Shown one piece after another: positions 3,015 to 9,338 of a stretch of DNA of 64,000 nucleotides. Made by a program: the position numbers and the translations under genes. The notes under the pieces are model-generated. The model was not told the DNA's origin. It saw only the letters and a program-made list of their open reading frames with translations, and made no database searches. Positions within the stretch are counted from its first letter, which is position 1. Every line of letters starts with the position of its first letter. The stretch is taken from positions 1,240,001 through 1,304,000 of the forward strand of contig NZ_CP015839.1 in NCBI RefSeq assembly GCF_001651805.1, written 5' to 3'. This DNA comes from Marinobacterium aestuarii. Its GTDB lineage: Bacteria > Pseudomonadota > Gammaproteobacteria > Pseudomonadales > Balneatricaceae.

Positions 3015-3091
3015 TGCGGGGTGGAGCAGTCTGGTAGCTCGTCGGGCTCATAACCCGAAGGTCATAGGTTCAAATCCTGTCCCCGCTACCA
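3015..3091 (+). tRNA. Initiator tRNA-fMet (CAT), copy 1
   Basis: A 77-base complete tRNA with encoded CCA. The anticodon loop is CTCATAA with a TCGGG/CCCGA stem; the three consecutive G-C pairs are the hallmark of initiator tRNA. The acceptor stem pairs GCGGGG with CCCCGC and leaves a T1/T72 mismatch, in keeping with the unpaired 1-72 position required of bacterial initiators (E. coli has C1/A72). The T arm is AGG-TTCAAAT-CCT. Copies with the same sequence lie at 8590 and 36485. Confidence 0.97.
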
Positions 3092-3130
3092 CATTCAAGA
3101 GTTGGTAATCGAAAGTTATCAGTTCTGCAA

Positions 3131-3169
3131 AAAAAAGGCCTGAAGTTGAAAAGCTTCAGGCCTTTTTTG
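3131..3169 (+). terminator. Intrinsic terminator after tRNA-fMet copy 1
   Basis: A run of A, then GGCCTGAAG, loop TTGAAAAG, CTTCAGGCC and a T run: a strong hairpin with poly-T, also symmetrical enough to work from the minus strand. It is the first of a series of related terminators, one after almost every tRNA or tRNA remnant in this locus. Confidence 0.85.
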
Positions 3170-3200
3170 TTATTTGTCGTTAGTAGAGGAGCAAAGAAGA

Positions 3201-3263
3201 CGTCGGGCTCGCTCTTTATAACTGCAGCGAAGGTCTTAGGTTCAAATCCTGTCCCCGCTACCA
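3201..3263 (+). repeat. tRNA-fMet 3'-half remnant R1
   Basis: Matches the tRNA from the anticodon stem (CGTCGGGCTC) to the final CCA, but the anticodon loop is replaced by a longer segment containing TCGCT...AGCGA, and the 5' acceptor strand and D arm are absent. It cannot fold as a tRNA. The T arm and CCA end are intact. A terminator follows at 3274-3311. Confidence 0.8.
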
Positions 3264-3273
3264 TATTTAGAGA

Positions 3274-3311
3274 GAAGGCTGGAGTCGAAAGATTCCAGCC
3301 TTCTTTCGTTT
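3274..3311 (+). terminator. Intrinsic terminator after remnant R1
   Basis: GAAGGCTGGA, loop GTCGAAAGA, TCCAGCCTTC, then T-rich sequence. It has the same position relative to the remnant as the terminator after the intact tRNA, but a different stem sequence. Confidence 0.75.
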
Positions 3312-3332
3312 TTGAGCAGTGAGGGCAAAAAG

Positions 3333-3395
3333 CGTCGGGCTCGCTCTTCATAACGGAAGCGAAGGTCATAGGCTCAGGTCCTGTTCCCGCTACCC
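3333..3395 (+). repeat. tRNA-fMet 3'-half remnant R2
   Basis: Same architecture and length (63 bases) as R1: CGTCGGGCTC, the enlarged loop with TCGCTCTTC...GAAGCGA, then a mutated T arm (AGGCTCAGGTCCT) and CCGCTACC with the terminal A changed to C. More decayed than R1. Confidence 0.75.
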
Positions 3396-3432
3396 TATTT
3401 AGAGATCAATAATTGTTGATTATTGGTCTTGC

Positions 3433-3472
3433 AAAAAAAGGTCTGAAGTTGAAAAGCCTCAGGCTTTTTTTG
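3433..3472 (+). terminator. Intrinsic terminator after R2, next to the intron insertion site
   Basis: AAAAAAAGG, a TCTGAAG-type stem with loop TTGAAAAG, then CCTCAGGC and a long T run. The group II intron begins six bases after the T run, at 3478. Confidence 0.8.
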
Positions 3473-3930
3473 TTATTGTGCGCCAGGCATGGCGCGTAGC
3501 GCCTTGATTGGCGCTGTTCCGGTACGCGTGGTGGCGGCCGGATGACTTGGTGGTGAAAGTCCACTATCGGCCCGGCAAGGGGAACGATTAGCCGAACGGC
3601 AAGGGTGTCCACCGCGAGGTGGAATCTGAAGGAAGCCGAAGGCAAAGCACTGGCCCGACGAACAGAAATCGCATAGGAGGCGGTCGCCGTGGGTGAGGAG
3701 GCAATTATCTTCAAAGCCCCATTCTTGCACGGAAACGGTGGACGTAAATGCGGCGGGTATAAGTGTGAAGGTCACGTGTCTTACCCTGGGAGCTCTGCTG
3801 TCCTGCCTCTGGCTACGGCCGTCGCGAGGCGGCCGGATGGGATAGCAGATGTCAGCAGACGCCATAGTAGGTCTGTTACCGCAGACTGAAGGGCTGAACA
3901 TGTCATACGAATCGGGAGCTCTGTGCCTTG

Positions 3931-4323
3931 ATGACCCTGAACATCGCAGATACAGCCGCTGAAAAGGCGCTGCTCACCGACGCGGATGGCGGGCGGAACC
4001 CGTCAGAGTCCCCGGCTGAGGCGATGCCGGTCACAGCGGAGACAGACCCACTTCCGAGCGGGGCCGATGTCGATCTGATGTCGGCGGTACTGGCCCGTGG
4101 CAATATGCTGCGGGCCTTCGATCGGGTGCGCCGCAACAAGGGCGCCCCCGGGGTTGATGGCATGACAGTGGCGGCGCTCAAGCCCTACCTGCAACGTCAT
4201 TGGCCCCAGATCAAACAGCTACTGCTGGACGGGCGTTACCGTCCGCAACCGGTGCGCAAAGTGGAGATCCCCAAGCCCGGTGGCGGTGTCCGTATGCTGG
4301 GCATTCCGACGGTGGTTTCATAA
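3931..4323 (+). pseudogene. ltrA: Group II intron reverse transcriptase, N-terminal fragment
   Basis: Encodes the start of an LtrA-type reverse transcriptase/maturase: a variable leader, then LMSAVLARGNMLRAFDRVRRNKGAPGVDG (the RT-0/RT-1 region) and KVEIPKPGGGVRMLGIPTV. The family continues LGIPTVLDRLIQQ, but here the frame runs into foreign sequence after the V codon (about 4313) and stops at 4321. The missing rest is found at 7244-8268. ATG 3931 was preferred over TTG 3928. Truncated by the serine-recombinase element, so no working product is expected from this part alone. Confidence 0.88.
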
Positions 4324-8666: not shown

Positions 8667-8702
8667 TATTTTTAAGTCGGTAATTAGTATTATTGGCTTT
8701 AC

Positions 8703-8741
8703 AAAAAAGGCTCGAAGTTGATGAAACTTCGAGCCTTTTTT
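8703..8741 (+). terminator. Intrinsic terminator after tRNA-fMet copy 2
   Basis: AAAAAAGGCTCGAAG, loop TTGATGAAA, CTTCGAGCC and a T run; strong and near-symmetrical. It is repeated exactly at 8866-8904 in the second tandem unit. Confidence 0.85.
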
Positions 8742-8765
8742 GTGTTTGTACGGAAAAAATAAAAT

Positions 8766-8829
8766 CGTCGGGCTCGCTCTTTATAACCCCGGGCGAAGGT
8801 CATAGGTTCAAATCCTGTCCCCGCTACCA
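8766..8829 (+). repeat. tRNA-fMet 3'-half remnant R4
   Basis: CGTCGGGCTC, enlarged loop TCGCTCTTTATAACCCCGGGCGA, intact AGGTTCAAATCCT T arm and CCGCTACCA end. No 5' half. Confidence 0.8.
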
Positions 8830-8865
8830 TATTTTTAAGTCGGTAATTAGTATTATTGGCTTTAC

Positions 8866-8904
8866 AAAAAAGGCTCGAAGTTGATGAAACTTCGAGCCTT
8901 TTTT
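8866..8904 (+). terminator. Intrinsic terminator after remnant R4
   Basis: Exact copy of the hairpin at 8703-8741, in the second 163-bp unit. Confidence 0.85.
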
Positions 8905-8928
8905 GTGTTTGTACGGAAAAAATAAAAT

Positions 8929-8992
8929 CGTCGGGCTCGCTCTTTATAACCCCGGGCGAAGGTCACAGGTTAAAATCCTGTCCCCGCTAGCA
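8929..8992 (+). repeat. tRNA-fMet 3'-half remnant R5
   Basis: Duplicate of R4 with three point changes, in the T arm and the CCA end (CTAGCA). Confidence 0.8.
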
Positions 8993-9029
8993 TATTTAGA
9001 CGCTGAATATTTGTAATTTTTAGCTAAAC

Positions 9030-9067
9030 GAAAAAGGTCTGAAGTCGAAAGATTTCGGGCCTTTTTT
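9030..9067 (+). terminator. Intrinsic terminator after remnant R5
   Basis: GAAAAAGGTCTGAAG, loop TCGAAAGA, then TTTCGGGCC and a T run. The stem contains mismatches, but the T run is intact. Confidence 0.7.
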
Positions 9068-9099
9068 GTTGCTGAGCAGTGAGCAGCAAGAGTGTAAAG

Positions 9100-9141
9100 C
9101 GTCGGGCTCGCTCTTTATAGCTGCAGCGAAGGTCGTGGGTA
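9100..9141 (+). repeat. Decayed tRNA-fMet remnant R6
   Basis: CGTCGGGCTCGCTCTTTATAG, then CTGCAGCGAAGGTC, after which the T arm is unrecognisable. A degraded terminator (AAGGCTGGAGTCG...GCGGCCTTTTGTGG, about 9173-9210) follows. The last copy of this array; 9211-9338 holds nothing I can assign apart from the purU leader. Confidence 0.65.
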
Positions 9142-9338
9142 GGAGCGCGGGTGTCGCTCATGGGGTTGGATATAAGGCTGGAGTCGGATGATTGCGGCCT
9201 TTTGTGGTTATGAGGTGGGCAGGCCGGTTTTTTGTGCGCGGTGGCGAAGGATGGCTTCGCTCTCAGTCACCATCGAGCCTGGGAGGCTGGTAAGATAGGT
9301 GCGCCTGTACAACGTATTACCAGACAAAGAGAACCCTA

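Follow-up and report, generated by a model that had tools for sequence, protein, structure and literature searches.

Altered partial copies of tRNA-fMet in tandem behind the initiator-tRNA genes of Marinobacterium aestuarii: probable repeats of the tRNA-linked type

In Escherichia coli, tRNA-linked repeats (TLRs) lie behind tRNA and rRNA genes, and the last 18-19 bp of each copy the 3' end of the gene that it follows (PMC8144298). The same paper counts 22 TLRs at ten loci, states that they have been known since 1978, with their function unknown before the study of rrA, rrB and rrF, and reports that three TLRs enclosed by dual rrn terminators are expressed through readthrough, their RNAs binding Hfq and CsrA (PMC8144298). 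In strain MG1655, we found that tyrT is followed by one TLR and tyrV by three, all four of which close with the 19-nt 3' end of tRNA-Tyr. Here we analyze a 64-kb stretch of the chromosome of Marinobacterium aestuarii (the window; positions 1240001-1304000 of a single-contig genome of 5.19 Mb), in which altered partial copies of the initiator tRNA (tRNA-fMet) stand in tandem behind intact tRNA-fMet genes, as they do at orthologous loci in relatives. We read these arrays as initiator-tRNA repeats of the TLR type and give this account, taken as a whole, a probability of about 0.6. Our literature search found no report of such repeats behind tRNA-fMet, most subscription journals lying outside its reach.

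The window contains only three tRNA genes, all tRNA-Met(CAT) and all on the plus strand, like every copy and terminator below (3015-3091, 8590-8666 and 36485-36561; ARAGORN and Rfam). A preliminary description, made from the letters of this DNA, had stated that each is trailed by copies of the tRNA 3' half, and we indeed found eight, of which R6 and R8 are degenerate and the other six, R1-R5 and R7, are good. tRNA-fMet 1 heads array A1, which comprises R1 (3198-3263, altered anticodon segment plus 3' half), R2 (3330-3395) and, downstream of an intron, R3 (8363-8429, without a clear terminator). Behind tRNA-fMet 2, array A2 holds R4 (8763-8829), the last 36 nt of which are identical to the tRNA, R5 (8926-8992), in which the T loop and the CCA are altered, and R6 (9097-9162), which keeps the anticodon segment while its 3' half and terminator are decayed. 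Array B follows tRNA-fMet 3 with R7 (36660-36725) and the very degenerate R8 (about 36838-36890), which was recognized by eye and was not found by the covariance model. R1-R3 and R5-R7 were located by pattern and covariance model. The 34-nt 3' half has, with up to three mismatches, 8 matches in the window (the three tRNAs and five copies) against 0.00 expected, and the altered anticodon segment GGGCTCGCTCTTTATAAC has 7 against 0.04, in agreement with the earlier statement that the anticodon loop is altered in the good copies. In the window, the tRNA model (RF00005) matched the three intact tRNAs and no copy, and a separate search of 8330-9240 likewise gave no match to a copy. A search of the whole genome for further or antisense sites gave 2 extra matches at three mismatches, against 2 for the reversed control.

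Good copies have the layout CGTCGGGCTC-GCTCTYYATAAC-variable-GCGAAGGTC-T arm-CCCCGCT-ACCA, which may be decayed, and R3 differs from the others in its start, CGCCGAGCTC. The anticodon arm of the intact tRNA-fMet reads TCGGG-CTCATAA-CCCGA. Compared with it, five of the six good copies keep the left stem strand TCGGG (CCGAG in R3), the right strand CCCGA is the part that is altered or lost, and the loop holds an insertion. The preliminary description had this the other way around, with the right strand kept, whereas it was correct that the D arm and the 5' acceptor strand are absent from the copies of the window. Its claim that the copies keep the CCA stands for R1 and R4 and fails for the other six of the eight; R2 ends in CCC, R3 in CCT, R5 in GCA and R7 in CCG.

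The insertion is common to the copies' anticodon loops and has the form TCGGGCTC(A/G)RCTYTY. In 98 copies from 24 genomes, CGGGCTC and the RCTYTY columns of the insertion are nearly fixed and 18 of the 20 columns upstream carry less than 0.6 bits, an apparent conservation that is inflated because the patterns and models used for collecting the copies partly impose the motif. The 3' half follows the tRNA type of the host, CATAGG/CCTGTC in some hosts and CGTCAG/CTGGCC in others, and copies of the former type have changes of their own. As the insertion is absent from the tRNA, conversion with the tRNA cannot maintain it. How far the 5' side is eroded varies: part of the D arm is kept in Aliamphritea and in G245, G372, G033 and G226 (G, L and f numbers are our handles for genomes, loci and families), and the copies of G292 retain acceptor and D-arm sequence, that is, a nearly whole tRNA body with the insertion. 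Decay of the 3' half, with the anticodon segment left intact, is seen in several copies that close an array (R6, L040, L055, L095, L111), as would be the case at the margin of an array that unequal crossing-over maintains. By eye, some copies at three loci of family f2 (L096, L098, L171) carry a long, hairpin-rich insertion in the T loop that resembles repetitive extragenic palindromes.

The altered segment occurs, with up to two mismatches, in 9 of 57 genomes, including all seven of the same genus; the two matches in G042 are unrelated. Among named genomes, the exact pattern is present in Marinobacterium rhizophilum, M. profundum, M. nitratireducens, Pokkaliibacter plantistimulans, Aliamphritea spongicola and two metagenome-assembled genomes (MAGs), one of the Oceanospirillaceae and one of Neptunomonas. 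Its match in a Chloroflexi MAG is unrelated and has no remnant. A first covariance model also matched tRNA-fMet itself, in 378 of 390 genomes of the order. The second model, built from 26 copies and used with a cut-off of E<=1e-12, detected copies in 14 of the 390 genomes and 11 of 143 genera, in families f1, f2, f6, f37, f41, f42 and f44; ten of these 14 genomes had contributed copies to its training. On inspection, the four that had not (G033, G080, G212, G292) all carry the insertion behind tRNA-fMet, and so do G226, G345 and G112, which lie outside the 14. A strict pattern matched 12 of the 390 genomes, seven of them genuinely according to the matched text (G000, G115, G372, G245, G345, G040, G395). 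By the same measure, the other matches look like chance (G098, G221, G329, G394, G400). Extra tRNA-fMet matches in seven genomes (G042, G061, G069, G254, G083, G095, G284) are full tRNAs in the stretches read. A stricter pattern directed outside the order matched none of 274 genomes of a class sample, four of which belong to the order, the window's own among them; this negative is weak, since the pattern requires CTC to be followed by a purine and so does not find the copies of the window itself. In two genomes of family f27 (G099, G222; L121, L122), a different type of 3' repeat stands behind tRNA-fMet, with a hairpin-like stretch, by eye, in place of the T loop; these repeats are closer to the E. 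coli TLR layout.

The preliminary description had proposed to see whether the copies trail tRNA-fMet in relatives, and they nearly always do. In clusters with more than 135 upstream bases, the first copy follows an intact tRNA-fMet with 75-209 bp between the two anticodon segments, the exceptions being L171, where no tRNA was seen, and L099, which is headed by half a tRNA; eight edge clusters (L040, L043, L044, L056, L057, L095, L112, L170) are outside this count. Array A, with tRNAs 1 and 2, is flanked by a Tim44-like gene and by purU-folD. These neighbors are found on both sides in G001 and G003, on two separate contig ends in G006 and on the left only in G005. Array B lies beside a DUF72 gene, as it does in G001, G003, G005, G006 and Pokkaliibacter (L045), and its counterpart in Aliamphritea (L055) is beside the next left-hand genes. 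All five Marinobacterium genomes for which both loci were fetched carry copies at both. In five genomes of other families (G395, G076, G342, G212, G040), copies stand behind the tRNA-fMet before rimP, RimP being identified by Pfam at the fourth locus of M. aestuarii and, in the five genomes, by tblastn from that protein (51-56% identity). As this locus has no copy in M. aestuarii and has copies in other families, the copies follow the tRNA-fMet gene and not one locus. Since comparable arrays are present in other families, the repeats appear to be inherited rather than chance debris.

As to the genes around array A, purU (Formyl_trans_N and ACT domains) and folD, both of formyl-tetrahydrofolate metabolism, directly follow it (9339-11168). 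The tyrTV TLR locus of E. coli likewise abuts purU.

Folds of the trailing DNA showed a strong hairpin and a T run after five of the eight copies (R1, 3270-3307; R2, 3433-3477; R4, 8863-8907; R5, 9027-9070; R7, 36765-36798) and after all three tRNAs (3131-3168, 8700-8744 and 36598-36635). The terminator is missing or decayed behind R3, R6 and R8, so that the earlier statement of a terminator behind nearly all copies is true of five of the eight. A terminator scan lists those of tRNA-fMet 1, R1, R7 and, with a shorter stem, R2, but has no entry within 8330-9330 or for tRNA-fMet 3; since it returns only some of them, the terminator claim rests partly on the folds. The terminator after R4 is identical to that of tRNA-fMet 2, both being part of an exact 163-bp tandem repeat at 8631-8956 (8631-8793 and 8794-8956), the unit of which comprises the tRNA 3' half, the terminator, a spacer and the altered anticodon segment. 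A single duplication therefore gave rise to R4, to its terminator and to the anticodon segment that follows, and because the terminator lies inside the duplicated unit, its repetition needs no function. In the arrays before rimP, there is no terminator between the copies, which are spaced at 86-107 bp (L095, L113, L115, L168) or 75-83 bp (L110). The terminator is thus a passenger of the unit where present and not a fixed part of a copy. Ahead of the terminator, a further AT-rich hairpin follows the 3' end of the tRNA, or that of R2 or R4 (3100-3125, 8674-8699, 36569-36597 and after R2).

Mobile DNA has entered the arrays. A group II intron (3478-8339, plus strand; Rfam, ends set by eye) sits just behind the R2 terminator and splits array A1, separating R3 from R1 and R2. 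R1-R3 form one array, and the DNA to the right of the intron resembles the DNA in front of R1. A large serine-recombinase gene on the minus strand (4318-6429) in turn interrupts the intron's reverse transcriptase/maturase frame. A transposase with rve and Mu-transpos_C_2 domains (37136-38677), which we take to be IS21-like, adjoins R8, and in G001 a Mutator-family transposase gene lies inside an array of copies (L034, 8977-10230). Among the ten window proteins scanned, there was no tyrosine integrase; a serine-recombinase gene lies within the intron.

We compared 64 copies with the tRNA of their host. Changed cells number 92/448 in the T loop, 54/640 in the T stem, 37/448 in the acceptor strand and 40/256 in ACCA; for the 59 copies without indels, the values are 87/413, 53/590, 18/413 and 27/236. 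A76 is changed in 17 of the 64 copies, and in 14 of 59 when the five indel carriers are set aside. Position 50 accounts for 26 of the 54 T-stem changes, 17 of which turn U-G into C-G while 9 break the pair (G076, G112). The T stem covaries, mostly tracking the host tRNA, and its retention is favored only mildly, as related copies are not independent. In the anticodon arm, the extended hairpin pairs above shuffles (p 0.003, 25 groups). The TCGC/GCGA stem of the preliminary description gains partial pairing support across families in this way, and yet none of its pairs is changed on both sides among 39 copies. We consider the evidence for RNA structure in the copies suggestive at best.

We propose that the founder was a full-length pseudo-tRNA-fMet with an enlarged anticodon arm, the form to which the nearly whole copies of G292 would come closest. 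The 3' half would be refreshed through exchange with the essential tRNA, by unequal crossing-over or gene conversion, while the 5' body erodes, and recombination with the tRNA would expand and homogenize the arrays, copying the terminator along. Transcription of the copies may come about when the tRNA terminator is read through or, where tRNA-fMet precedes rimP, within one common transcript. The resulting small pseudo-tRNA RNAs would be akin to the TLR RNAs RrA, RrB and RrF of E. coli.

Several results weigh against this account. The patchy distribution (14 of 390 genomes) could mean many losses or some transfer, and the fourth tRNA-fMet of the genome (C1:5066913, upstream of the RimP gene) has no copy behind it. 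The inflation of the motif by its own collecting patterns belongs here as well. At the RNA level, 21 of the 47 changed T-stem pairs are broken and 26 still pair, five of them changed on both sides; the anticodon-like stem shows no gain in 11 of 25 groups, and six of the groups, on which its support leans, are Marinobacterium. RNAfold structures of R1, R4 and R7 are not better than those of shuffles (z +1.0, +0.1 and +0.1). An upstream hairpin between flank and insertion, presenting CGGGCTC, was not supported (Wilcoxon p 0.33; 12 of 25 groups in the expected direction). No promoter-like site was found on the tRNA strand of the three arrays, and one was found on the minus strand; this negative is weak either way, because the promoters that should precede the tRNAs escaped the scan as well.

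A first alternative is that the arrays are passive, that is, pseudo-tRNA copies which persist through recombination with an essential gene and yield no RNA and no function. We regard it as a serious competitor, to which we give somewhat less than even odds. It accommodates a duplicated unit that includes the terminator, the decay of several last copies, the broken T-stem pairs, the lack of excess fold stability in R1, R4 and R7, the lack of forward promoter-like sites in the arrays and the entry of the intron, the IS21-like element beside R8 and, in G001, the Mutator-family gene. It is harder to reconcile with copies at both loci in five of five Marinobacterium genomes, with a T stem better kept than the T loop and with an insertion that is absent from the tRNA and yet common to seven families. 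The conservation of the insertion suggests selection, and since it extends across families, the copies may encode a functional small RNA. That transcription of the copies into small, putative pseudo-tRNA RNAs is what places the insertion under selection is a tentative proposal, against which we would sooner bet than for it. We think it unlikely, going further, that the copies make up an unnamed class of small pseudo-initiator-tRNAs behind tRNA-fMet, present in at least seven families of one order, marked by a CUC-(A/G)-RCUYUY insertion, made in amounts that scale with transcription of the initiator tRNA, by readthrough or by co-transcription with rimP, and having a regulatory role connected to translation initiation.

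Attachment-site scars, the simplest origin according to the preliminary description, would be left by elements that target the anticodon loop of tRNA-fMet and would have been amplified later. Partial tRNAs left by integration are common (PMC9897764). The anticodon loop is where the copies depart from the tRNA, as the T loop is for the tyrTV TLRs of E. coli, and a serine-recombinase gene is present, though inside the intron. Both loops are among those used by tRNA-targeting integrases, so a remote origin of this kind is conceivable. We nevertheless find it improbable: the arrays have the same chromosomal neighbors in several species and genera, the ten scanned window proteins include no tyrosine integrase, and copies can repeat every 83 bp (L110), which is too close for an intervening element. 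A strict pattern had no hits in IMG/VR, and none of the nine hits of a wide pattern and the single hit of a long one has a T arm nearby. Of 341 phage (46) and plasmid (295) records, none covered 80% of the query at a single site; in the 20 of them that were read, ten phage and ten plasmid, the match spans 31-42 bp, and 19 of these 20 matches begin at the 3' half, omitting the altered anticodon segment. A trace of integration may be seen in G245 (L099, about 2150-2200, reverse strand), where the half tRNA-fMet at the head of the array gives the impression that the tRNA was once entered by an element; its junction has the unaltered CTCATAA loop, unlike the copies. One search for an integrase near it listed only a helicase-like frame. 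Even less probable, in our view, is a decoy for integrases or for a tRNA enzyme (RNase P/Z, RNase E or the CCA-adding enzyme), in which the stems would be kept and both loops changed. The T loop is changed more than the T stem, as a decoy would have it, and the copies can be drawn as a compact tRNA-like fold, with the CGGG strand standing in for the missing acceptor strand; this fold is strongest in one copy type of M. rhizophilum. Against this, the right anticodon-stem strand is lost, the folds of R1, R4 and R7 do not exceed shuffles, and the CCA is often lost, with A76 altered even in copies free of indels (14 of 59). The change of A76 in 17 of 64 copies disfavors in particular the decoy roles that need the tRNA 3' end, which the preliminary description had put forward.

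If the arrays are TLR-type repeats, they would represent a second TLR lineage, tied to the initiator tRNA and with a conserved insertion of its own, and TLR function would become testable by comparison. They also call for caution in the annotation of attachment sites and tRNAs, since recombination by itself can produce partial tRNAs in tandem, repeated terminators included.

Two other known systems share single features with these arrays. The partial tRNA genes at attR sites are likewise a tRNA 3' part behind an intact tRNA, but no element was found at our arrays, and these differ in their altered loop, tandem arrangement and orthologous placement. tRNAOther of Bacillus cereus is a tRNA-like gene outside translation with a reported role (PMC3399842); it is a single gene in an unrelated context. 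The E. coli TLRs (tyrTV TLR/RttR, rrA, rrB, rrF) are closer. Our motif has no match on the tRNA strand of the E. coli tyrTV stretch, and there is no RtT family among the Rfam hits of the window. Placement directly behind a tRNA or rRNA gene, which marks TLRs, is found in the judged clusters except L171 and L099. An identical 3' end of 18-19 bp is found strictly in R1 (27 nt) and R4 (36 nt); R2, R3, R5 and R7 are identical to the tRNA 3' end at 31-35 of 36 positions but differ in the last three bases, and R6 and R8 are decayed. As several 3' ends are not identical and transcription is predicted only, we call the arrays a TLR-type variant. Like the E. coli repeats, they stand directly behind a gene, copy its 3' end and are in tandem, as TLRs are at some loci, rrB lying between two terminators (PMC8144298). 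In contrast, 18-19 bp are copied in E. coli (in tyrTV from the T loop) and about 36 bp or more here, up to most of the tRNA in G292; the point of departure is the T loop in tyrTV and the anticodon loop in our arrays, which have an altered anticodon segment and an initiator tRNA as their parent.

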